Notes under the pieces: model-generated
What the model was told of the DNA's origin: nothing
Databases searched by the model: none
Seen by the model: only the letters and a program-made list of their open reading frames with translations
In this document: positions 599 to 20,938 of the stretch, one piece after another
Layout: every line of letters starts with the position of its first letter
Position numbering within the stretch: the first letter of the stretch is position 1
Origin: Methanothrix sp.
Lineage (GTDB): Archaea > Halobacteriota > Methanosarcinia > Methanotrichales > Methanotrichaceae
Length of the DNA stretch: 40,777 nucleotides
Direction of reading: 5' to 3'
NCBI GenBank assembly: GCA_025361645.1
Contig: JANYKI010000107.1
Location: 1 to 40,777, forward strand
Position numbers and translations under genes: made by a program

Positions 599-751
599 CT
601 AACCCACAGTTCGTAACTCGCCCCGAAAGGCCCGCTCCAGCACAGCCGGAAGGAGAGCGTCCAGCTCGGCGGCGGTCTCCGCTTGGTGGCGCTTGAGGGC
701 GCCGAGCTTGGCTTGTAGCACATCGAGGCACATAATGATTTGATCGCCCAT
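599..751 (-). pseudogene. C-terminal fragment of type I restriction specificity subunit (HsdS)
   Basis: Minus-strand 50-aa frame MGDQIIMCLDVLQAKLGALKRHQAETAAELDALLPAVLERAFRGELRTVG* matches the typical HsdS C-terminal coiled coil (…LKRLQAETAAELDALLPAVLDRAFRGEL). Confidence 0.7.
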
Positions 752-793
752 CCAGAACAATATTTAATGTAGGAGGCTCCAGGGTTTAGCCCG

Positions 794-1978
794 ATGACCG
801 AGATCCGAGACCCCGTGCACGGCTATGTTTTGCTGGAGGGCCTGGCCCTGGAAATCGCGGACACGCCCCAGATGCAGCGGCTGCGCTGGATCAAGCAGCT
901 CGGCTTGGCCAGCTTAGTCTATCCCGGCGCCAATCATACTCGCTTCGAGCACAGCCTGGGGGCCTACCATCTGGCTGATCTTCTCGCGAACCATCTCGGC
1001 CTGCCAGAAGAGGATAAGATGCTGGTAGGCGCCGCAGCGCTTCTGCACGACGTGGGCCACGGGCCGCTCTCCCATGCCACCGAGTCAGCCCTTGCTCCAT
1101 ACCTACGCAAGGATCACGAGAGCATCATTGATCTACTGAAGAAGGGCGAGCTTCGGGCGGTTTTAGACAATTACGGCCTGAAGGCCTCCGATATCCAGTC
1201 CGCCATAAATGGAGTTGGTCTGGGGCAGATCGTGAGCGGCGAGATCGACGTGGATAGGATGGACTACCTGATCCGGGATGCTCACTACACCGGCGTAGCC
1301 TACGGAGTGATCGATCGATTGCGTCTACTGCAAAAGATGACCCTTCACCAGGGAGAGCTGGTGGTGGAGGCAGGAGGCGTGCAGGCGGCGACTTCCTTGC
1401 TCATCTCCCGGCTGCTCATGCATCCATCCGTTTATTATCATCATGTCTGCCGCATCTCGGAGTGCATGATCTCTGCCGGAATCCGGCGCATGATTGAGGA
1501 AGGGGCTAGTGCCGGCGCCGTAAAAGAGATGGATGACATCCAGCTCTTTACTTCCCTGGAAAGGTCGGGCGGCTATGCGGCTGAGATGGCGTCCCGCATC
1601 AAATCTCGGAGAATTTTTAAGCGCGCCGTTTACGTCGGCCTGGAGTGCCTGGACCCTTCCGTTCTCAAGGTAAGCGAAAAGATGCTGGCCCAGGAGATTG
1701 CCCGTGAGGCGGGAGTAGAGGCAGATTACATTCTGGTAGACAACCCCACGCTTCCTGATACGCCGGAGGGCAACTTTCCCGCTCTCGTCGAGGGTGAGGT
1801 CAGACCCCTGCGGGAGGTGTCGCCTCTGGTCAGCATCCTGGAAAGAGCGCACCGGGCTACCTGGCGTTTCGGCATCTACTGTCGGGAGGAAGATCGAGAG
1901 AATGTGGCCCAGGCGGCCCGCAGGTGTCTGAATCTCAAGAAAAATAGACTGATTTATCGATATATAAATACGTTTTAA
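794..1978 (+). CDS. HD superfamily phosphohydrolase (COG1078-like)
   Basis: 394 aa; MTEIRDPVHGYVLLEG..., HTRFEHSLG, LLHDVGHGPLSH, DVDRMDYLIRDAHYTG HD-domain motifs. Confidence 0.9.
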   Translation: MTEIRDPVHGYVLLEGLALEIADTPQMQRLRWIKQLGLASLVYPGANHTRFEHSLGAYHLADLLANHLGLPEEDKMLVGAAALLHDVGHGPLSHATESALAPYLRKDHESIIDLLKKGELRAVLDNYGLKASDIQSAINGVGLGQIVSGEIDVDRMDYLIRDAHYTGVAYGVIDRLRLLQKMTLHQGELVVEAGGVQAATSLLISRLLMHPSVYYHHVCRISECMISAGIRRMIEEGASAGAVKEMDDIQLFTSLERSGGYAAEMASRIKSRRIFKRAVYVGLECLDPSVLKVSEKMLAQEIAREAGVEADYILVDNPTLPDTPEGNFPALVEGEVRPLREVSPLVSILERAHRATWRFGIYCREEDRENVAQAARRCLNLKKNRLIYRYINTF

Positions 1979-2128
1979 TGGGAACCCTTGTCTGGTTCTA
2001 TTCTAGGCCAGTGAAACGGATGCGGTGCATTCGCACAGCAAGCAGAACTAGCCCAAAGAAAATATAGTAGTATTGAAATCCTGTTATTGAAGTGTAAGAT
2101 AATGGTAAGAGGAAGGAGCAGCAACAAG

Positions 2129-2230
2129 TCCGGGTTCGTTGACTATGATCTCGTGCGCGCGCGGGCGGAGGGGCGGGCACCCGCGGGCATGGACGCAGGG
2201 ACGACGGCGCTGTTTCCGGATGGGTTTGAG
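2129..2230 (+). pseudogene. Internal fragment of HsdS (type I restriction specificity subunit)
   Basis: SGFVDYDLVRARAEGRAPAGMDAGTTALFPDGFE resembles the conserved HsdS inter-TRD segment (SWFVDFDPVRAKAEGR.P.GMD..TAALFPDSFE); the similarity stops abruptly afterwards. Part of ORF 2087..2272. Confidence 0.7.
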
Positions 2231-2281
2231 AGACGGAGAGATATAAGAGCAAAATGTGCAATGACGATTTAGGGATAAAAT

Positions 2282-3439
2282 ATGATGCCAATAAAATACG
2301 AACAACATTTTCTCTATTTTAATAGATCAGTATTGGCTCAGTATAGAGCTTCGCCTCACATCTACGGTTTAAAAGAAGATGATATGGGTGGCATCCTTGA
2401 AACAGCATTAGATGATGTTGACTTAGATAATGACTTATCTGAGAATCAATATGTACGAGTACGATTTGGATTCAGAAAACTTAAAGATAATTGCGTTTGT
2501 ATTGCAGGACTACGTTATGACGTCCAAGAGTTGCCAGAAAAAGATCAATTCATATGGCGCGGAAATATGCTCAATAATCCTCTATTTGCCCAAGACGACC
2601 TCGCCTTTGAACGATGGGTTCATCGATATATTGAAGGCTCTTGGGATGTTGAAGATGGCCCAAGGATTCAGATTGATCAATATGTGAAATTGATCAGATC
2701 TCTGACACTTCAGATTCTAGGAAGGCCCCTCTTTCGATTTGAAGAAAACGCTTTGATAAATTTTCCGATAACAGAAAACACAGATGCCTACGATAAAGCA
2801 CATTTGGAACTTTATCGCCTCATAATAGATGGTCTGGACAACAATGCATTAGTTCTTCTTGCGGATAAACTAAAAATTCCTCTTTCTGATCCCAAAAAGA
2901 CCCTAAATAGCCTCAAGGAACTCTTGCCCGAAGACTTAATAAAGATTATTCATAAACCACTGAAGAAATGCTCCAATGAACGCAGCGATATTCATGGTGT
3001 TCCCTCAGAATTGGGATCGTTTCCTGCGTTTGATACGTTTCGCAGAGACTTAATTGAGATAGCTAAATCGCTTGAGGAATTGAATAAATGGCTAGAGATC
3101 TCACTATCTGTAGATTCAAAGGCGTGTCTGGAGAGAGAAGAATGGATGAAAGGACTATCACCTAAATTCATAGGTCCTCCTAGACCGGAGTTTAAATTGA
3201 ATGAGCTGAGGAAGGCTGAAGGCAAGACCATAAAGTCAGTAGAGTTCGGTGAAGAAGCTGAGATGAAAGGAGTGCATGGAAGAGAAGGAATGATTTTTCA
3301 CTTTTCTGACGGCACCTCTATGTCAATTCTTGTTGGATCAAATATAAGTAATTTAGCACATAAATTCAAGGATATGAAGCAGGAAGAGTTCCAAACAGAT
3401 TTGATGGTCTTTTGGGCACCGTCTATTCAAAAGGAATGA
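2282..3439 (+). CDS. Hypothetical protein, AT-rich, no family recognised
   Basis: 385-aa ORF, no overlap with other credible genes; lies between hsd-like fragments. Confidence 0.7.
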   Translation: MMPIKYEQHFLYFNRSVLAQYRASPHIYGLKEDDMGGILETALDDVDLDNDLSENQYVRVRFGFRKLKDNCVCIAGLRYDVQELPEKDQFIWRGNMLNNPLFAQDDLAFERWVHRYIEGSWDVEDGPRIQIDQYVKLIRSLTLQILGRPLFRFEENALINFPITENTDAYDKAHLELYRLIIDGLDNNALVLLADKLKIPLSDPKKTLNSLKELLPEDLIKIIHKPLKKCSNERSDIHGVPSELGSFPAFDTFRRDLIEIAKSLEELNKWLEISLSVDSKACLEREEWMKGLSPKFIGPPRPEFKLNELRKAEGKTIKSVEFGEEAEMKGVHGREGMIFHFSDGTSMSILVGSNISNLAHKFKDMKQEEFQTDLMVFWAPSIQKE

Positions 3440-3495
3440 TTAATCTTTAAAATAGTATAATTCACCTCTTTAGATGCAAAAGGTGAATCAGATCC

Positions 3496-3540
3496 TTGAC
3501 CCTTACAGAATCCCTCGTCGAAGAAGCCGCCATCTATCTC
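3496..3540 (+). pseudogene. Possible HsdR N-terminal fragment
   Basis: LTLTESLVEEAAIYL resembles the N-terminus of many HsdR proteins (M.LTES.VEEAAL.WL); only 15 aa, placed downstream of an HsdS fragment. Confidence 0.35.
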
Positions 3541-3610
3541 GTGCCACTGCCAAGGGTATTTCCTGTGAGATCATGATAAATAATGTGAAAAATCCGTAGG
3601 AGATCAAGAT

Positions 3611-4870
3611 ATGATTGAAGGAGACCGCGCCAGGCAATCGGTTCCAAGAATCGAATATCTAAAAATAAAGAACTATAGAGCCCTTCGTAACCTTGAGCTG
3701 AGAGGCATCACCCCGTTGACGGTCTTCCTTGGACCAAACGGCAGCGGAAAATCGACCATCTTCGATGTTTTTGCCTTCCTCTCAGAATGCTTTTCAGTGG
3801 GCCTGCGTAAAGCTCTGGATAAACGGGGTCGGTTCAAAGAGCTTCGCACCCGTGGGTCCAGCGGTCCTATCGAGATCGAGCTGAAATACCGCGAGAGAAG
3901 CGACATGCCCCTCATCACCTATCACCTCTCCCTTGACGAAGGCATCAGCGGCCCTTATGTAGCCGAGGAATGGCTGCAATGGAGGAGAGGACAGCAAGGA
4001 AAACCCTTTAAGTTTCTCGTTTTTAAAAATGGAGAGGGACAGGTAATTGCCGGAGAAAAGCCGGTCGAGATGGGCGAGAGGATTCATGAGATGCTGACGT
4101 CTTCTGATATGCTTGCCGTCAACGCATTGGGCCAGCTTGCTAAAAATCCAAGAGTTAGTGCTCTGCGCCAGTTCATAACCGGATGGTATCTTTCATATCT
4201 TACCGCAGATAGCACGCGGGGATTCTCTGAGGCGGGTCCTCAGGAGCGACTGTCAGCAAACGGCGATAACCTGCCTAATGTTATTCAATATCTTAAAGAA
4301 CAGCATGAGGACCGTTTGAACCAGATTTTGAATACATTATCTCATCGTGTTCCAAGATTGGAGAAAGTTGAGTCCGAATTCATGCCTGACGGCCGGCTTC
4401 TCTTGCAGATTAAGGATGCTCCTTTTGAGCAGCCGATACTGGCGAAATTCGCATCTGACGGCACCCTTAAAATGCTGGCCTACTTGACTTTGCTCTATGA
4501 TCCACAGCCGCCTCAGCTCATAGGAATTGAAGAGCCGGAAAACCAGCTTCATCCCAGGCTCTTGCCGGAACTCGCCGAAGAGTGCAGACATGCGGCAGCC
4601 AAAACCCAGCTTATGGTCACAACCCATTCGCCTTTTTTTGTAAACGGTCTCCGGCCGGAGGAGCTTTGGGTTCTCTACAGAGATGAACAGGGTTACACTC
4701 AGGCGCGGCGTGCTGCGGATATGCAAGGCATCAAAGAGTTCATGGATGAAGGTGCACAGCTTGGTTACCTCTGGATGGAGGGTCACTTTGAGGTAGGCGA
4801 CCCTTTGACGGCATCAGGCGGCCCAAAACGCCCCTCATTAATCCAGGCTGCAAGGCTTCAAGCGGAGTAA
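3611..4870 (+). CDS. AAA family ATPase (AAA15/AAA21, OLD-like ABC-type ATPase)
   Basis: N-terminal [14 protein letters not shown]..., Walker [12 protein letters not shown] signature-like region, Walker [24 protein letters not shown]. Confidence 0.9.
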
Positions 4871-4877
4871 TGATCTT

Positions 4878-5507
4878 ATGCATATTGTATTTTTAGTGGA
4901 AGAGATCTCTGCAGAAGCCGCCCTGCTCAATCTTGTGCCGAAGATTCTGGGCGCAAGTGCATCTTTCGAGATTCACCCCTATCAGTGCAAAAACGATCTT
5001 CTATCAAAACTACCACAGGTTATGCGAAGTTATGCCAAATGGTTGCATGACGACTGGCGCATTGTTGTCTTGGTCGATGAAGATCGGAGCAATTGCAAAT
5101 CACTCAAAGATCGACTGGAGAACGCAGCGAAAGATGCTGGGCTGATTACCCGTACTATGTCCGATAAAACAAGTAGTTGCTCAAGATTTCAAGTTATGAA
5201 CAGGATAGCAGTAGAGGAGCTGGAGGCGTGGTTTTTCGGAGATGCAAGCGCAATCAATCAGGCTTACCCTAAAGTTCCTAGGACTCTTGGAAGCAGATCA
5301 AAATATCATGATCCAGATTCAATTAAAGGAGGAACATGGGAGTCCCTGGAGCGTGAGCTAAAAAAGTCAGGGTACTTTAAGGGCGGTCTACGTAAAATAG
5401 AGGCTGCAAAGACTATTTCTGCATTCATGGAACCGGAAAGAAATAATTCCAAAAGCTTTCGAGTATTTAGAGACGGCCTGCGAGAGATGGTTAGATGGGG
5501 GATATAA
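4878..5507 (+). CDS. DUF4276 family protein (TOPRIM-like fold)
   Basis: IVFLVEEISAEAALLNLVPKIL..., WRIVVLVDEDRSNC, NRIAVEELEAWFFGD, YFKGGLRKIEAAKTI motifs; 7 nt after the AAA ATPase. Confidence 0.85.
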   Translation: MHIVFLVEEISAEAALLNLVPKILGASASFEIHPYQCKNDLLSKLPQVMRSYAKWLHDDWRIVVLVDEDRSNCKSLKDRLENAAKDAGLITRTMSDKTSSCSRFQVMNRIAVEELEAWFFGDASAINQAYPKVPRTLGSRSKYHDPDSIKGGTWESLERELKKSGYFKGGLRKIEAAKTISAFMEPERNNSKSFRVFRDGLREMVRWGI

Positions 5508-5608
5508 CGGAATTCGAATGCGACGCAAAAGATACTCGATAACGGTTACCTTTAAGTCACAAGAGAGCATAAAAGACAGGAATGGCATTTTCCGATGACG
5601 GACAGGCG

Positions 5609-6034
5609 ATGAACAAGAATATTCTGGTCAAGACCATTCAGACTATGAACCAGCACCTGCCCAGTAAGCGAACCAATTTGGCCGAACTTATGATCATGGA
5701 GAAGCCCGGCGTCAAGGGAAAGGATAATACTTTTTTCATCATGGACAAAGCCGAGCTGAATCTGATCTCCGAGAGCCTGCCCAGATTTCTCTGGAGCCGC
5801 CTGCGACTGCCCATGCTAATTGAGATGTCTCCCGACTACGGCAGCGGCGCCGCCCGGGTGCAGGGCGAGCCGGAAGTGGAGCTTGTAGCTAAGATCCTGG
5901 GAAAAGAAAGGCCTCCCGCTCAAACAAGGCAGATAATAATCTATCTTGCCGAGGTAAGGGAGCTACGACGAAAGCTTCCCACCACCACCCAGTATGCTTT
6001 TGTAGCCAATCTCCGGGAGAGGATAGAGGACTGA
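5609..6034 (+). CDS. UPF0216 family protein
   Basis: MNKNILVKTIQTMNQHLPSKRTNLAELM..GKDNTFFIMDKAELNLISE; ORF 5582..6034, internal ATG at 5609 preferred. Confidence 0.8.
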   Translation: MNKNILVKTIQTMNQHLPSKRTNLAELMIMEKPGVKGKDNTFFIMDKAELNLISESLPRFLWSRLRLPMLIEMSPDYGSGAARVQGEPEVELVAKILGKERPPAQTRQIIIYLAEVRELRRKLPTTTQYAFVANLRERIED

Positions 6035-10854: not shown

Positions 10855-11408
10855 TTTCCTTTCACCTCTCCTGTTTATTTTAGGCATAGTATACATACAA
10901 TTGCGAATTACTGCAAATCTTCTAAATTATTTGTGCTTTTCATGCTAATAATACTTGTGGTTGTCAAAAATTTAAACCGTCGCGCATAAAATTTAATGAA
11001 AAATTAATATCGTTATATTATCATATTGCTCGATATCTGTATAAAATAAATATAAAACTTTTGTTTTGCTAATTGCATGCCGTATACAAATACAAATTGA
11101 ACTTTGGGCGTTTAGATATTAAATTATATAATATTGTAATTAAGAGTAAATAGCAATATTTTAAACAAGTAATTTCCGAAAAATGGTGAAAAACTTCAAA
11201 TAGATAAGCTGATGACCAATTATATGTTTATCTGAATTTGGTCTTGGAAAGGATGTATCTAATGCTATTGCCGGTATGGATAAAAGCAAGATAGTTATTA
11301 CAATAATAGGTCTGTTCGAAAAAAATCTATCTGATAGCAAGAGACGAGATGCCTCTGATTAAGATAACCCGACACAGGCCGAATAATTGGGATATAGGAG
11401 GAAAAATC

Positions 11409-14400
11409 ATGTCATATCATAGCAAAGCGATAACTTTAGTAATGCTATTATCGCTGGTTTACCTGCTGACGGGATCATCGCTGGGCGCGGCTGCGCCCGG
11501 TCTCGCCGTAAATCAGCTCGTAACCTCTGGACAGACTGTGACCTTGCAAGCTCCTTCTGGAGATTACCTCTATCAATGGACCGCTGTGACTGGCGGCGCT
11601 ACCATTGGCCAGGGGGCGGCGCGGAGTTTTTCATTTAAAGCTCCCCTGGTATCTCAGGATGAGAGCTCGAAGGCGGTCACAATCTCGCTGTTCATAAGAA
11701 CCAAAGAGGGAGGTTGTGTCAACCAAACGAGTACAGATATTAGTGTCTATTCCCTGCCGGTTTGCGGCATAAGCGGACCCGCACAAGTCGGTCCCTATGA
11801 AACCGCCGCGTACAGTTATACGGGCGGCACAGGCGGCAAACTGACATTTGTGTGGAATGTGGACGGCAAGAAGATAGATGGAGCCACCGGGCCAAATGTC
11901 AACATAGATTGGACCCAATACAGTCCCGTCAATCACACCATCGGCATGACCTTAACCAAGGATTACTCTGATGTGGCCCCCGGCTCAACTAATCCATTCC
12001 GCAGCATAACCTGTACTTATAGGACTAATGTTACCTACACCACGGGAATGGAGGTAGTTAAGACCGCTTCGGCAACTACAGCATCAGTCGGCCAGGCCGT
12101 TACCTATACCTATACGGTCCGAAATACAGGAACAATAGGCATAAACGCTCTGACCCTGGTGGATGACAAACTCGGCACGCTTGTGCCCGCTGCAAGGACT
12201 ATTCTGCCGGGAGTTTCAACAACTGCAACCAGCATTTACACCATCAAAGAGAGCGATCTGCTTGGGCCCCTTAACAATACTGCAGTTGCTTCCGGCGTTG
12301 AGGATAGAACTAAGAAACCAGTAAGTGCCACAGCCAGTGCCACCGTGGCTCTGACCTATAACGCAGCCTTAAGTCTGACTAAAGTGCCCTCCTCTACCAC
12401 TGCCAAGGTGGGAGATACGGTGACTTACAGGTTCACTGTGACAAACACCGGCAATGTCACAATAAAGGGCTTGAACCTGACGGATGACAAGCTCGGAACC
12501 ATAAAGACCGACAAGAATGAACTGGCTCCAGGAGCGGTAGCATCAGCATCTGCAACCCATGTCATATTGGAGAGCGATCTGCCTGGACCTCTGACCAATT
12601 TGGCCACTATCCAGGGTACGGATAGCCAGAACAAGCCGGTTACGGCGACAGCTACAGCAACTATTGCTCTGACCTATACCGCTGGTCTCGCCGTAACTAA
12701 GACACCGTCTTCTAATAATGCCAAAGTAGGAGATACGGTAACTTACCAGTTCAGCGTGAAGAACAACGGTTCTGTCACAATAAACGGACTGGCTCTTAAC
12801 GATGACAAGCTAGGCGTCATCACCCTGGACAAGAATTCTCTGCCACCAGGCGAGACGGCCACGGGGTCAGCCACGCACTTGGTCGTTGAGACGGAACTGC
12901 CCGGACCTTTGACCAATGTGGCCACAGCAACAGGCACAGACAGTCAGAACGTTCCGGTTACTGGCCGGGCGACTGCATCGGTCGTGCTTACCTACACTGC
13001 CACTCTGCAAGTAACCAAGACTCCTTCCGCCCAAACGGCCAACGTGGGCGAGACTGTAACCTATCAATTCCAGGTAAAGAACACGGGATCGGTTACTATC
13101 AATACACTGGCTCTCGTGGACGATAAGCTCGGCACCGTCGCCCTGGACAGGACTTCTCTGCCACCAGGCGAGACGGCCAATGGATCGGCAACGCACACCG
13201 TTATCGAGACGGATCTGCCTGGACCCTTGACCAATGCCGCATCGGTCTCGGGCACTGATAGCCAGGGCAAGCCGGTTGCAGGCCAAGCTACTGCTTCGGT
13301 CAAGCTTACCTACGTCGCCGCTCTGCAAGTGACCAAAACACCATCTTTGAAGACGGCTGCCGTGGGAGAGACCGTCACCTACCAGTACTCCGTGATGAAC
13401 ACAGGAAAGGTGACAATCAATGCTCTGATCCTGACGGATGACAAGCTCGGCGATATCAAACTGAATATAGCCCTGCTGGCTCCGGGCGAGACAGCCACGG
13501 GATCCACTGCACACACAGTCGTCGAGACTGATCTGCCTGGACCTTTGACCAACGTCGCCACTGCCAGAGGCACAGACAGCCAGAATAAGCCGGTTACAAC
13601 TACAGCCAGAGCCTCAGTAGCGCTTACATACACAGCCACGATGGAATTTACCGAGTCTCCATCTGCTACTACGGCCAAAGTAGGAGAGAGCGTAACCTAC
13701 ACCTACACTGTGAAAAACACGGGAACGGTTGCCATCAAAGGGCTGACCCTGAAGGACAACAAGCAGAATAACATCAAAGTGGACAAAGACACACTGGCTC
13801 CAGGCGAGACTGCCACCGGATCGGCAGCGCACCTTGTAGTCGAGGCTGATCTGCCCGGACCATTGACCAATGTCGACACTGCTGCGGCAACGGACAGCAT
13901 CGGCAAAGCAATTACAGCGCAGGCCGGTTCCACTGTGCCGTTGAGCTATTCTGCAGGCATGGAGATAATCAAAACCCCATCGACTACTGCGGCCAAAGTG
14001 GGAGAGACTGTAACCTACTCCTACACAGTGAGAAACACAGGAACGGTTGCTATCAATGATCTTGCTCTCAAAGACGATAAGCTGGGTGAGATCAAGATAA
14101 GCAATAAAAAGCTGGCCGTAGGCGAGACTGCCACCGGATCGGCAACGCACCTTGTAGTCGAGGCTGATCTGCCCGGACCATTGACCAACGTCGTCACAGG
14201 CACGGCTACTGACAGACAGGGACGACCGATTACAGCCTCGGCAACGGCATCTGTAACGTTAACCTACACTGCCGCCCTGACAGTTACCAAAGAGCCCTCA
14301 GCCAAATCCACGGGCGTTGGTGACACTGTAACCTACAAGTTCACTGTGAAGAACACAGGAACCGTTACCGTCCTTGGATTGACCCTCAGTGACGACAAGC

Positions 14401-15488
14401 TCGGAGCTATCAAGTCGGATAAGGATACACTCGCACCTGGCGAGACCACGACAGCTTCGATTGGACACATCATTGTAGAGTCGGATCTGCCAAGCCCCCT
14501 GACCAACGTGGTTACTGCTGCTGCTACGGACCGCCAGAAACAGCCGGTAAAAGCTACAGCCACAGCCTCAGTAGTGTTGACCTACACCACTGCTTTGGAG
14601 ATGACTAAGGTTGCAACGCCCGCTTCTGCAAAAGTTGGTGAGACGGTAACTTACACCTATACCATAAAGAACAACGGAAAGGTCACAGTCAAGGCTTTGA
14701 GCCTGACGGACGATAAGCTGGGACCAGTCAAATTAGACAAAGACTCTGTAGCACCGGGAGGGACAGTTACAGGAAAAGCAAGTTACGCCATCGTTGTAGG
14801 AGACGCACCTGGACCTGAAATCAAGAGAGCTCTCGTCAAGGGCAATGATCCAGTGGGCGTCGGCGTCAGCGCCGATGCATCTGCAACTGTAACCATAACC
14901 AGAGATGCCATCACTCCAGTGGTGACATGCGTTTCAGAAAACAAAGACGGCACTTACACCGCATTCTTTGGCTACAGCAACACGAACAGCTATCCAGTCA
15001 CCATCAATGTAGGAAAGAATAATCAATTTACTCCGCCCCCAGACGGCCAGGGACAGCCCACCAGCTTTGAACCGGGAAGCCAGGCGGCTGTCTTTGCAGT
15101 CGTATCAAAGGGAGACTCTTTAGTCTGGCATCTGGAGGAAAAGACAGCAGAGGCCAACAAGAACTCAGGCGGATGCGCCCAGGCGGCTTGCGGATTGGAT
15201 GGCCCCGCTGCGCTATGCAAGAATAAGGAGGAAACCTATAGCTACACTGTAAAAGAGGATGCCCAGTTCAAGCAAAGCTATGACTGGTCGATGGATGAGA
15301 AACCTGTGGGCTCCGGCAAGAGCATTAGCCTCTCCGGAAGCAACTTCGATTTGGGTGAACACAAACTCAAAGTGCTGGTAACCAGGAATTACAAAGAAAT
15401 GTTCTGGTCCAGCAAAGAATGCAGCATGGATATAAAGGTCATACCCGAACCATCTGCGGATATATCCATGGCGGAGGAGGCAAGTTAA
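11409..15488 (+). CDS. Large surface protein with nine DUF11-like tandem domains and flanking Ig-like domains
   Basis: Signal peptide; repeated TYTA.L.VTKTPS...AKVGETVTYTYTVKNTG...DDKLG...L.PGETATGSATH.VVE.DLPGPLTN. ORF 11349..15488; ATG at 11409 follows GGAGG. Confidence 0.9.
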   Translation: MSYHSKAITLVMLLSLVYLLTGSSLGAAAPGLAVNQLVTSGQTVTLQAPSGDYLYQWTAVTGGATIGQGAARSFSFKAPLVSQDESSKAVTISLFIRTKEGGCVNQTSTDISVYSLPVCGISGPAQVGPYETAAYSYTGGTGGKLTFVWNVDGKKIDGATGPNVNIDWTQYSPVNHTIGMTLTKDYSDVAPGSTNPFRSITCTYRTNVTYTTGMEVVKTASATTASVGQAVTYTYTVRNTGTIGINALTLVDDKLGTLVPAARTILPGVSTTATSIYTIKESDLLGPLNNTAVASGVEDRTKKPVSATASATVALTYNAALSLTKVPSSTTAKVGDTVTYRFTVTNTGNVTIKGLNLTDDKLGTIKTDKNELAPGAVASASATHVILESDLPGPLTNLATIQGTDSQNKPVTATATATIALTYTAGLAVTKTPSSNNAKVGDTVTYQFSVKNNGSVTINGLALNDDKLGVITLDKNSLPPGETATGSATHLVVETELPGPLTNVATATGTDSQNVPVTGRATASVVLTYTATLQVTKTPSAQTANVGETVTYQFQVKNTGSVTINTLALVDDKLGTVALDRTSLPPGETANGSATHTVIETDLPGPLTNAASVSGTDSQGKPVAGQATASVKLTYVAALQVTKTPSLKTAAVGETVTYQYSVMNTGKVTINALILTDDKLGDIKLNIALLAPGETATGSTAHTVVETDLPGPLTNVATARGTDSQNKPVTTTARASVALTYTATMEFTESPSATTAKVGESVTYTYTVKNTGTVAIKGLTLKDNKQNNIKVDKDTLAPGETATGSAAHLVVEADLPGPLTNVDTAAATDSIGKAITAQAGSTVPLSYSAGMEIIKTPSTTAAKVGETVTYSYTVRNTGTVAINDLALKDDKLGEIKISNKKLAVGETATGSATHLVVEADLPGPLTNVVTGTATDRQGRPITASATASVTLTYTAALTVTKEPSAKSTGVGDTVTYKFTVKNTGTVTVLGLTLSDDKLGAIKSDKDTLAPGETTTASIGHIIVESDLPSPLTNVVTAAATDRQKQPVKATATASVVLTYTTALEMTKVATPASAKVGETVTYTYTIKNNGKVTVKALSLTDDKLGPVKLDKDSVAPGGTVTGKASYAIVVGDAPGPEIKRALVKGNDPVGVGVSADASATVTITRDAITPVVTCVSENKDGTYTAFFGYSNTNSYPVTINVGKNNQFTPPPDGQGQPTSFEPGSQAAVFAVVSKGDSLVWHLEEKTAEANKNSGGCAQAACGLDGPAALCKNKEETYSYTVKEDAQFKQSYDWSMDEKPVGSGKSISLSGSNFDLGEHKLKVLVTRNYKEMFWSSKECSMDIKVIPEPSADISMAEEAS
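12045..14900 (+). repeat. Nine ~310-330 bp coding tandem repeats (DUF11-like domains)
   Basis: Nine occurrences of the (V/T)TYT.(A/T/G)..(V/M)TK.P..AKVGETVTY start motif. Confidence 0.85.
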
Positions 15489-16726: not shown

Positions 16727-19700
16727 TTGAAGAAATGTTCTAATTCATTGAGACATTTTGCTCGGTCATGCCCCCTGGTGAAGATATTTGTCACCTTAGT
16801 GAGCACTGCTCTGATTTTAGCTTTTTTAAATATCGCTCCCGTTTTGGCCGCCCTGGAAAAAGAGGTGCAGTCGGGGAGCATTTTCAACTTTGTTGCCAAT
16901 AACGTATCTCAAGAAGGTGTCTCTTTTCAGTGGAGCGCATCTGATGGAAGCCCAACGAGCTCCACGGAAAGATCTTTTCGATGGACGGCACCTGTTGTCG
17001 ATTCACCCCAGAATGTGGTCATATCGCTAAATATAACTAACTCCTATGGTTGCTGTAAATATTATAATGATACTTATAATATTCGTGTGGTCCCTAAATC
17101 AGTGGCCAAGATCGTCTTGAAAAAAGATTGCTTATTCACGGCACCCGTCCGAATAGGGGACCATGTATTATACACTTATAACGTAACAAACCAGGGAACT
17201 TTGCCTCTTGTGGACTTGAATCTCACTGACTTGCAGAACTGGGGACCGGATTGCCTGCCCGTTTACAGAAGGGGTGATGATGGAAACGGGGTGCTTGATC
17301 CGGGAGAATCATGGTGGTATGAATACGATTATCGGGTTTTAGATCCTTCCGACTATCCTATACTTCGCATCATGCAAAGCAAGATGGGTTCCACACAGTT
17401 GTCAGAGACTATACAACGACTGATGGAAAAGAAGGTTCGCCTCGTGATTGTGATGGAGAACTTACGTCGATTTGCAGGTCAATTCGACATGCAGGCCGCT
17501 ACGCTGGTCACAAGTCAGCAAATCCTAAACTATACATATTACAATTACAGCAATGAAGTGACAGGAGAATCCTTTTGCAAGATCGTTGATCTTAAAGGCA
17601 ATCTGAATAGAACCATCTACCTGGATCCCATATCCGGTGCCGTGTTAACGGTGCGTTTTACGGCATTTGGCAAGATACTCTCCGAAGAACTCTACTATCC
17701 TCCGCCCGGAACTAGAGAGTACTTCAAAATAGAGTATGATTTGCCAGCGAAGGGATATAATACTATCACTATCATTGATTATAAATCCGGCGATACACTA
17801 ATTCTGATTGTAGACAGCCGGGGAAATATTTTGAGCAAGGAGTATCGAAGAACTCCTGGATATCAGCTCTACATAGAGAGATTTTTACTCAAGAATAAGG
17901 CCCGCGTGACTGCTAAAACCAGAGACGGAAAAGATGTGTCCGATTCGGATTCATTCACTTTGGAGGTCTTCCGGCCCATGCCCAATTTACGAGTGACAAA
18001 GACCGCCCAGCCGGAACCGGTAAGCTCAGGAGGTCTCCTGAACTATTCCATCGTTTATGAAAACACTGGTGGTTCAGATGCCCATGATGTTGTGATCAAG
18101 GAGACTTACAATAAGAGCATCACCTTCCTCACGGCAGACCCTGCCCCGGATACGGGGACTGTGAATAGGTGGAGCCAGGGAGATCTCAAGATAGGGGAGT
18201 CGGGCCGGATACAAATCCAGGCCAGGGTCAGTGCCCTTGCCTTGCCCGGATCGGTAATTACCAATCAGGTAGTTCTGACGTGCAAGGAAAACTCCACTGC
18301 AATTAGTATCATCAATACCACTGTGGGTGGCAATGATTTGAATATTACCAAGATCGCTTCTGCAAATTTCGTGTCTCCCGGCAAGAACCTGACCTATATG
18401 ATAATGTATCGAAATAATGGTTCAATAAAGCAGACCAATGTGACGATTCAAGATTGGCTGGACCAATACGTCGATCTGGTCAACGGCAGCTCCCAAAAAT
18501 ATCTCTTGTGGCGGCTGGGAGATTTGAATCCGGGCGAGGGGGGCACAATAACCATAACGGTGAAGGTAAAGAATGCGATTCCAGTGAATGCTTCTAAAAT
18601 CATAAATAAATATAGAATAAATTCCCACCTGTTTGCCGGGAAAACTGCGACATTAGTGACAGGGTTGATTCACGGCGGATTGAATATTACCAAGAGAGCT
18701 TCCTCAGATTTCGTGCCCCCCGGCAGGGAGCTGACCTATACCATAACCTATCGAAATGAGGGCTCTGTAAACCAGACCAATGTGACGATTCACGATTGGC
18801 TGGACCAATACGTCGATCTGGTCAACGGCAGCTCCCAAAGATATCTCATGTGGCGCCTGGGAGATTTGAAATCGAACGATAGTGGCACAATAACCATAAA
18901 GGTGAAGGCAAATATTACTATTCCCAAGGATGTTTCTAAAATCATCAATACATATGGAATAAATTCTACTCTGGTTGCATTGAAAAAAGCGACATTAGAA
19001 ACGGATGTGGTCCATTCCCTCTGGATCCGGAAGAAGGCTGATAAGAGCATCTACAACAGGGAAGATAACATAACTTATACTATTAATTACGGGAATACGG
19101 AAAACCGTTCTGCCTATAATGTGACGGTCACCGACCTTCTTCCCAAGGTGATTCTCCTCAGTGTGTCTCCTCCACCCAGTACTATGAGCGGCAATAACCT
19201 GACCTGGATAGTTGGAACTTTAGGCAATAATTCATCTAGAACCATTCAAATAATGGTACAGATCCCGAAGAAAGCGAAGGCGAATTTTTATGAGACCTCT
19301 CTGGTGCAAGGCAATGGCTATGCTTATGTCCGGAAAGGATTTGACACCCTGGAAAAGAAAGAGGCACTCATAAACAGAGCAAGGATATCAGGATACTATG
19401 GAATATATCTATATAAAGTCATCAGCAATTCAACCGTCACTATTCTCGGCTCGCCCGGCACCAGTATTTCCAGTCTGGAGCATGGAAGCGGTTACTACAA
19501 AGAGGAGGCAAAGAGCAGCCTGCATCAAGAAAATAAGAGCATCAGCCTGGAAAAGAATCTGTTTGCCAAATACGGGAAGACTGCCTTTCTCCTGCCTGGG
19601 AATCGAAGCCTTAATTACGATTCATTGTGGTCGGATCGAACTCGCATTGAGAACCGGATCCTGGGCGATTCCCTCAGTGAAAAATATCTATACGCCGATA

Positions 19701-20938
19701 CTCTGAGCCAGAACAGCACTTATGTGGCGGATATGAACCAGACCGTTTACAGTTCTGAGGCCGATTTCAGCTCCGGCATGGCTCAGATAAGCTATAAAAA
19801 GCGCGTCCCTGACGAAAGAGCTGTTATCCAGGAGATCGATGAAAACTACCACGGCAGCTTCCGGATAAAAGAGGCCGTGGACTCTTACGGAGAGAGCGTC
19901 AAATTCACCAAATCTGCCAAAGGCAAAGGATTTGTCTCCACTGATAAAAGGGCAAAAGGGCTGCAAAGATCCTATGAGTCGGGCAGCGGTTACTACTCAT
20001 CCCAGGAGTCATCGGAGCTTGGCTCAGTCAACAAATACACGAAGATGCAATATGCTCCTGTCCTTCTTCGGGCCGGATCCCAAAACCAGAGCTATGCGAG
20101 TTTATGGGATGAAGGCATGCTGACCAAAGATGAGGTGGCAGGGGTCCTAATTAGCAAGGATATCCGTTATGCCTCATCCGTCGATATGGAGGCCATGATG
20201 GAGAAATCCTCCCTCTCCCTTCTCGGTAAGTTCAATGGAACCCTTGATATAAATATGGAAAACGGGCCGCGCATCGGTCTGGATCAGACGCTCCTCGGAA
20301 GCTTTCAGATCGATACGGCGATAAGCATCCACGAGACGCCCAAGCATCTATATCCCCATGTGAATATCAGCAAGACGGCAGTCATGCTGGATGAAAATAC
20401 CGTCCTCTTTCTCATCAATGTCAGCAACGACGGCAACAAGTTGCTCAAACCACTGAATGTAACCGACATTCTTCCCAAAGGCTGCAGCTACATCAACTCC
20501 AGCATCAGAGCGAAGACGAACGGCAGTATGGTCAATTGGACCCTTCCCTCCCTTGATATCGGCAGAACGCTGACCATAAAGATGAGGGCCAAGGTGGATG
20601 GCGGGCGCGCCTATTATACGAATACCGTGCAGGTCAGGGCTGTCTCTAAGGAGAGCATAGTTCTGGCCAAGAACAGCACCACCTTTGAGGCTTACTATCA
20701 GCCGCTGCCCTGCTGCCCGGGAGTGGGCACAGGCGCGGGTGCGGACAACAAGATCAATGCCACCCGTCTCTTTAATGCGACGCCTGTCATTGGATATTGG
20801 GGTGCATGGAATCCGTCCCCCTGTTTCAATATCACCGGCAATATGACGGAATGTTCAGCGGAGTCGGAAGCCTATTATGATGAGCTGGAAAAGAATGCGG
20901 TCCTGTGCAGTTGTGCATCCAATTACGAGGTACCGTGA
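16727..20938 (+). CDS. Large surface protein with DUF11-like repeats and an unclassified duplicated internal domain (TTG start)
   Basis: Signal peptide; repeats (LNITKIAS..F.PPGKNLTYMI.YRNNGS..QTNVTI.DWLDQYVDLVNGSSQ); N-terminal region similar to the 11409 gene. Confidence 0.85.
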   Translation: MKKCSNSLRHFARSCPLVKIFVTLVSTALILAFLNIAPVLAALEKEVQSGSIFNFVANNVSQEGVSFQWSASDGSPTSSTERSFRWTAPVVDSPQNVVISLNITNSYGCCKYYNDTYNIRVVPKSVAKIVLKKDCLFTAPVRIGDHVLYTYNVTNQGTLPLVDLNLTDLQNWGPDCLPVYRRGDDGNGVLDPGESWWYEYDYRVLDPSDYPILRIMQSKMGSTQLSETIQRLMEKKVRLVIVMENLRRFAGQFDMQAATLVTSQQILNYTYYNYSNEVTGESFCKIVDLKGNLNRTIYLDPISGAVLTVRFTAFGKILSEELYYPPPGTREYFKIEYDLPAKGYNTITIIDYKSGDTLILIVDSRGNILSKEYRRTPGYQLYIERFLLKNKARVTAKTRDGKDVSDSDSFTLEVFRPMPNLRVTKTAQPEPVSSGGLLNYSIVYENTGGSDAHDVVIKETYNKSITFLTADPAPDTGTVNRWSQGDLKIGESGRIQIQARVSALALPGSVITNQVVLTCKENSTAISIINTTVGGNDLNITKIASANFVSPGKNLTYMIMYRNNGSIKQTNVTIQDWLDQYVDLVNGSSQKYLLWRLGDLNPGEGGTITITVKVKNAIPVNASKIINKYRINSHLFAGKTATLVTGLIHGGLNITKRASSDFVPPGRELTYTITYRNEGSVNQTNVTIHDWLDQYVDLVNGSSQRYLMWRLGDLKSNDSGTITIKVKANITIPKDVSKIINTYGINSTLVALKKATLETDVVHSLWIRKKADKSIYNREDNITYTINYGNTENRSAYNVTVTDLLPKVILLSVSPPPSTMSGNNLTWIVGTLGNNSSRTIQIMVQIPKKAKANFYETSLVQGNGYAYVRKGFDTLEKKEALINRARISGYYGIYLYKVISNSTVTILGSPGTSISSLEHGSGYYKEEAKSSLHQENKSISLEKNLFAKYGKTAFLLPGNRSLNYDSLWSDRTRIENRILGDSLSEKYLYADTLSQNSTYVADMNQTVYSSEADFSSGMAQISYKKRVPDERAVIQEIDENYHGSFRIKEAVDSYGESVKFTKSAKGKGFVSTDKRAKGLQRSYESGSGYYSSQESSELGSVNKYTKMQYAPVLLRAGSQNQSYASLWDEGMLTKDEVAGVLISKDIRYASSVDMEAMMEKSSLSLLGKFNGTLDINMENGPRIGLDQTLLGSFQIDTAISIHETPKHLYPHVNISKTAVMLDENTVLFLINVSNDGNKLLKPLNVTDILPKGCSYINSSIRAKTNGSMVNWTLPSLDIGRTLTIKMRAKVDGGRAYYTNTVQVRAVSKESIVLAKNSTTFEAYYQPLPCCPGVGTGAGADNKINATRLFNATPVIGYWGAWNPSPCFNITGNMTECSAESEAYYDELEKNAVLCSCASNYEVP

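Follow-up and report, generated by a model that had tools for sequence, protein, structure and literature searches.

A split OLD-type ATPase–DUF4276 pair, HEC-01, among type I restriction relics in a Methanothrix genome

The window considered here, a contig of 40,777 nucleotides taken at its full length, belongs to a 2.43-Mb Methanothrix metagenome-assembled genome (97% complete; G000 below) and carries, between two core genes encoding an HD-domain and a DUF61 protein, a tight operon of an AAA15/21-type ATPase gene and a DUF4276 gene set in the debris of a type I restriction–modification (R-M) locus. Both genes are intact, 7 bp apart, with the ATPase first, just as a preliminary description of this DNA had them, and its placing of the pair among known types of anti-phage module is matched by PADLOC, which lists the two as HEC-01, a candidate defence system. 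Besides DUF61, the contig contains open reading frames (ORFs) that we take, from reading their translations, to be thiD-like, dapA-like and S17e-like; because these core genes share the contig, the locus is assigned to the archaeon.

The ATPase–DUF4276 pair and the relics around it

The ATPase, HEC-01A, is covered by PADLOC model PDLC04182 over residues 12–397 of 419. Its Walker A (GPNGSGKS, 3731–3754), signature-like (SDGTLKM), Walker B (GIEEPEN) and switch (THSP) motifs are invariant or nearly so in an alignment of 36 sequences, and profile comparison with the PDB places it closest to PtuA, OLD (TsOLD), retron ATPases, AriA and GajA. For its partner, HEC-01B (model PDLC04202 over residues 1–205 of 209), a sequence profile finds no significant match in the PDB. 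A structure model built with 69 sequences (predicted local distance difference test, pLDDT, 92.1) has as its top Foldseek match 6njv, the C-terminal TOPRIM region of Xanthomonas OLD (XccOLD; prob 1.00), the remaining listed matches having probabilities of 0.8 or less. Five residues are invariant in 69 DUF4276 sequences, namely E8 (4899), D67 (5076), D69 (5082), E116 (5223) and K173 (5394); in the model, E8 ends strand 1, D67 and D69 end strand 3, and E116 follows strand 4. An E/DxD acidic arrangement of this kind is that expected of a TOPRIM nuclease. The TOPRIM-like partner anticipated in the preliminary description, which would have been called into question by the lack of such a site, is what the model points to: DUF4276 is predicted to fold as an OLD-type TOPRIM domain and is a putative nuclease. 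With an OLD-type ATPase and a TOPRIM-like DUF4276 protein encoded in separate genes, the pair is thus taken to be a split OLD-type module. As a point of annotation, two PADLOC labels look swapped, PDLC04143 ("HEC-01A") matching the DUF4276 protein and PDLC04144 ("HEC-01B") the ATPase.

No functional type I R-M system, with intact hsdM, hsdS and hsdR, was found at the locus; fragments only are present (Table 1). The two HsdS-like pieces first noted at 599–751 (minus) and 2129–2230 (plus) are real, each falling within a PADLOC match. The former is common to the sister species G030 and is not found at the same place in G031, G025 or G034. The latter is 84% identical to L019:211-360 and 72% identical to the full HsdS of the archaeon G004, and a 232-aa hsdS fragment stands at its place in G029. 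The possible HsdR N-terminus first placed at 3496–3540 would not be recognized alone, as its 12–14 codons give 6 bits and no profile match at E≤0.01; it is accepted because G030 has a longer homologous stretch at the same place, 29 codons of HsdR N-terminus (E 6.9e-15) directly upstream of the same ATPase. The DNA alignment between the two scores 24, while none of 1000 shuffles exceeds 14.6. A third, probable hsd relic (5495–5521), beyond the HsdS pieces and this scrap, had escaped the preliminary description: its counterpart in G022 reads MGDITEFDIE, and that in G037 is a decayed hsdR of ~100 codons.

Table 1. Features of the locus, in window coordinates
Feature	Position	Strand	Evidence and remarks
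HsdS C-terminal remnant	599..760	-	PADLOC Specificity_I E 1.9e-5, profile 349-391/391; divergent from HD gene
HD-domain (HD_assoc_2) gene	794..1978	+	PF19276 4e-73; host core gene, left insertion boundary, outside module
hsdS central remnant	2087..2272	+	PADLOC Specificity_I E 2.2e-11
ORFx	2282..3439	+	385 aa; between hsdS and hsdR relics
hsdR 5'-end remnant (TLTESLVEEAA...)	3497..3540	+	DNA alignment to 29-codon HsdR N-terminus of G030
Leader before ATPase gene, ~85 bp	3526..3610	+	conserved in G000, G030, G029, G022, G037 (alignments)
HEC-01A, OLD/ABC-type ATPase	3611..4870	+	PADLOC HEC-01A E 2.4e-172; PF13304/PF13175 (AAA_21/AAA_15)
HEC-01B, DUF4276, TOPRIM-fold nuclease-like (predicted)	4878..5507	+	PADLOC HEC-01B E 8.5e-90; PF14103 4.8e-31
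Probable second hsdR start (MGDITEFE)	5495..5521	+	overlaps DUF4276 stop; recognizable only by comparison with G022, G030, G037, G004
DUF61 gene	5582..6034	+	PF01886 3e-41; core gene, right insertion boundary

The pair is under purifying selection. The ratio of nonsynonymous to synonymous substitution rates (dN/dS) is 0.05–0.08 for the ATPase (0.06–0.08 between G000, G030 and G029) and ~0.15 for DUF4276 (G000 vs G030), within the range of 0.05–0.3 seen for neighbouring core genes. Loss also occurs, since the DUF4276 gene of G029 is interrupted by a stop. The window's own genome yields no match to PF01420 (HsdS) and none to the A3 HsdR profile, so the pair appears to be kept without a type I partner. 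Decayed copies were seen elsewhere too, where relatives keep the pair intact: in G018 at C153:2028-2231, by an AMMECR1-like gene, and in G014 at C1:1507389-1507619, near a CTP-synthase-like gene.

Type I operons and hsdR footprints in relatives

A scan of GTDB genomes returned 367 encoding stretches, the best 80 of which were kept as the loci for the counts of pairs, operons and footprints given here. The pair is obligate, the ATPase lying directly upstream of DUF4276 in 77 of the 77 loci with enough contig. It is also patchily distributed, being present in 16 of 50 genomes of the family, with some copies decayed. An hsdR gene lies within 3.5 kb downstream of DUF4276 in 12 of the 80 loci, abutting or overlapping it (−48 to +68 bp) in 11 of these 12, with hsdS upstream in nine and hsdM in six; these embedded loci come from Methanotrichaceae, Syntrophaceae, Elusimicrobia, WOR-3, Chloroflexi, Planctomycetota and Poribacteria. 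When 5 kb or more of upstream and 3.5 kb or more of downstream sequence is required, 38 pairs remain, six of them embedded. The order in the archaeon G004, for example, is M78 peptidase, DUF4411, hsdS, SLFN_AlbA_2, ATPase, DUF4276, DUF1828/1829 and hsdR (1040 aa). On a tree of the ATPase the embedded state amounts to 10 changes, at least four of them forced by well-supported branches, though a contig end may account for some of the "alone" labels. The link to type I R-M proposed in the preliminary description is thus borne out, and because the pair also occurs within type I operons in relatives, its further suggestion that the pair may have outlived an R-M system now reduced to debris fits well. 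As for mobile elements, ten plasmid records carry relatives, two DUF4276 loci were found in viral contigs, and no DUF4276 relative was found in 50,697 phage records.

The relatives also keep a more particular trace of type I operons. The pair is accompanied by scraps of the hsdR 5' end in G000, G030, G029, G037, G022, G004, L075 and L099, and five Methanothrix copies that no longer have the operon, the window's included, retain them. Immediately upstream of the ATPase, an HsdR N-terminal profile picks up scraps in L075, G030, G029, G037 and, weakly, the window; the one in G022 is seen by alignment. In a control, 5 of 1790 tiles reached the same score, three of them in L078, where there are real extra hsdR starts. 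In the survey of 50 genomes of the family, HsdR N-terminal matches whose open frame is shorter than 100 aa all adjoin the pair (G030, G037, G004, G029). A pattern resembling an hsdR start directly follows DUF4276 in 8 of 80 loci; of the other gene ends, 5 in 792 are followed by one. The eight include two stand-alone pairs, L058 (G022) and L099. Individual loci display the arrangement in several forms: L075 has a scrap of ~36 codons upstream of the ATPase and an intact hsdR after DUF4276; G037 has a scrap, the pair and a decayed hsdR; and G004 has a weak scrap upstream of the pair and another downstream, followed by the DUF1828 cargo and then the intact hsdR. Since stand-alone cassettes at different sites carry pieces of hsdR, they are best explained as having originated inside type I operons, and the relatives show that cassettes repeatedly enter and survive such operons, leaving hsdR fragments behind as a footprint.

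A broader proposal, which we put forward tentatively and which may well prove wrong, is that type I operons can be read as a stratigraphy. Each cargo would enter at the 5' end of hsdR, leave the old first 20–40 codons behind as a scrap, and bring or restore an intact hsdR downstream; HEC-01 would be a habitual passenger that exits to stand alone with its scraps. The layering is read from few loci (G004, L075 and L078). L078, from Elusimicrobia, has three hsdR starts in its operon, one following each cargo (a TIR-like ORF, a DUF3800-like ORF and the HEC-01 pair), the middle one apparently belonging to a longer, frameshifted hsdR. Were the scraps a general footprint of insertion, they would reveal the route by which accessory defence genes come into restriction operons, and further genes of this kind could be located simply by looking for such scraps. 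HEC-01 itself is already catalogued; what is new is the hsdR footprint, insofar as the literature passages searched, whose coverage is incomplete and does not prove novelty, make no mention of hsdR scraps beside cargo.

Within the window, the cassette is accompanied by further sequence. The leader ahead of the ATPase gene is conserved between cassettes at different genomic sites and travels with the cassette; its frame is interrupted in the window, so it may be regulatory. ORFx, called an unknown ORF in the preliminary description, has indeed no Pfam, PADLOC or NCBIfam match and is probably an accessory cargo gene. One homologue (56%) was found among 238 genomes of the class and none in viral contigs, and plasmids hold partial-length relatives only. 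Two of its parts look like different plasmid proteins: the N-terminal half is similar to one from Paraburkholderia, and the C-terminal ~80 residues to a small hypothetical one from E. coli plasmids (near repA/yacA, pSE11-2). It is possibly a multidomain orphan. An AlphaFold model from two sequences was useless (pLDDT 35) and was not used for fold search.

The flanking genes are widespread, HD being matched in 50 of 50 and DUF61 in 48 of 50 family genomes, and in insertion-free relatives (G031 and others) HD directly adjoins DUF61. Between them lie an HsdS fragment, ORFx, the hsdR scrap and the pair in the window; an HsdS fragment, DUF3800, an hsdR scrap and the pair in G029; and an hsdR scrap and the pair in G030. 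The junction (1978–5582 in the window) is an insertion hotspot in Methanothrix: in G025 (L037) it holds ~10 kb of ORFs resembling sensor kinases and response regulators, it has smaller inserts in G026, G027, G021 and G006, and is short in G031, G020 and G033. Farther along the window are two very large ORFs of ~1400 aa each (11349–15488 and 16727–20938), the first of which consists of DUF7507/DUF11 repeats and has the appearance of a surface protein.

Defence and its alternatives

The reading we favour, and regard as likely, is that HEC-01 is a split OLD-type defence system, brought in as cargo of a type I operon that has since decayed, with the pair kept by selection. The pair would have arrived between the hsdS and hsdR genes of an operon inserted between HD and DUF61, the hsd genes being lost afterwards by deletion and the pair retained. 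A model of its mechanism is available by analogy with PARIS, where the ATPase, on sensing a trigger, frees the TOPRIM nuclease or activates it (PMC12409363). Here, too, the ABC-type ATPase would be the sensor or gatekeeper of a separate TOPRIM nuclease, most likely keeping it inactive and freeing or positioning it upon sensing infection; the released nuclease would then cleave nucleic acid, either DNA or tRNA, and thereby halt the phage or the cell.

Several observations weigh against this reading. The match of the DUF4276 model to 6njv is modest (template modelling score, TM, 0.48; E 1.1e-3). Most stand-alone copies lie amid housekeeping genes, next to sigma factors, transporter components, and thioredoxin and pyridine-nucleotide oxidoreductases, and not in defence islands; comparing 110 near with 110 distant neighbour ORFs of stand-alone copies gave no clear enrichment, families being counted and not distinct proteins. 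Related cyanobacteria keep the pair beside the same neighbours, which could mean a cellular role, and the archaeal OLD protein Cran1 acts in cell-cycle progression, not defence (PMC12796447). The preliminary description had held that homologues found mostly outside defence islands would speak against it, and in this respect the survey of neighbourhoods is divided, the stand-alone copies telling against defence and the R-M-embedded ones for it. Because the former sit mostly among housekeeping genes, the link to defence rests on the embedded copies and on HEC-01 membership, and we infer the role from these together with the OLD-type architecture and the patchy distribution with its decayed copies.

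The stable housekeeping neighbourhoods, the Cran1 precedent and a purifying selection equal in strength to that on core genes would all suit a domesticated cellular OLD-type ATPase/nuclease, working in DNA repair or in the chromosome or cell cycle and meeting type I operons incidentally. We nonetheless hold this to be rather unlikely, in that only about a third of the family genomes (16/50) have the pair, some of them decayed, and in that a position exactly between hsdS and hsdR recurs in several phyla, with the embedded state scattered over the tree. Alternatively, the pair would serve type I restriction as an accessory with a function of its own, whether as modulator or as a back-up triggered when restriction is inhibited, the copy in the window then being a passenger on its way out: in embedded operons the pair is tightly coupled to hsdR, with stop and start codons overlapping, and DUF4276 has decayed in G029 and G018. 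This seems improbable given the low dN/dS between species that have no intact R-M genes at the locus, a genome that offers neither HsdS nor matching HsdR elsewhere, and the many stand-alone copies. A toxin–antitoxin-like or plasmid-stabilizing element without specific anti-phage action, as might be suggested by the Pfam description of AAA_21, which names AbiEii/type IV toxin–antitoxin, and by the ten plasmid records, is very improbable indeed: DUF4276 is predicted to have a nuclease-like TOPRIM site and not an AbiEii nucleotidyltransferase, and the pair is rare on plasmids and absent from the phage records searched.

Comparison with known defence systems

HEC-01, or Hma-embedded candidate 1, comes from PADLOC and the preprint of Payne et al., as the latter is cited in PMC12988326 and PMC11411939, which also present the embedding of defence genes in other systems as known. 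It has been reported by annotation in a Desulfovibrio paper; the literature searched contains no report of an anti-phage test of HEC-01 itself and no mention of "DUF4276". Both proteins of the window match its models over almost all of their length, and their genes are adjacent, with the order unchanged. The name refers to the Hma cluster, whereas hsd relics and core genes surround the window pair, with no Hma gene adjoining, and the context of its relatives here is type I R-M operons or none. The Hma-embedded candidate thus becomes a widespread, obligate two-gene module of archaea and bacteria that also recurs inside type I operons and outlasts them, and DUF4276 gains a concrete, testable putative activity, that of a TOPRIM nuclease gated by an ATPase.

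Defence pairs among hsd genes have a parallel in TgvAB, found within the Vibrio cholerae VPI-2 type I operon, and in Campylobacter genes between hsdR and hsdS (both PMC11411939); TgvAB is GmrSD-like (type IV restriction) and so of an unrelated family, and its host R-M system is intact and active. The preliminary description had set the pair beside RloA/RloB, OLD/Gabija and PARIS, and what stands of this kinship is the common OLD plan, split or fused. OLD classes 1–3 join ATPase and TOPRIM in one polypeptide, whereas the window has two ORFs, as in class 4. OLD-type ATPase motifs are shared with class 1 and class 2 (Gabija GajA), and XccOLD is the top structural match of DUF4276, but no GajB UvrD-like helicase occurs among the ORFs scanned around the pair. 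The ATPase also falls below the cut-off for MAD3 of MADS (NF047739, 117.5 bits vs 420). In PARIS (AriA/AriB, class 4 OLD) the ATPase and TOPRIM nuclease likewise occupy two adjacent genes, and the AriA model matches the window ATPase (3.9e-29); the ATPase is nevertheless far better matched as HEC-01A, and DUF4276 has no AriB match, hitting HEC-01 models only in PADLOC. Distinct from RloAB, PARIS and Gabija alike, the pair is a split OLD-type module built like PARIS.

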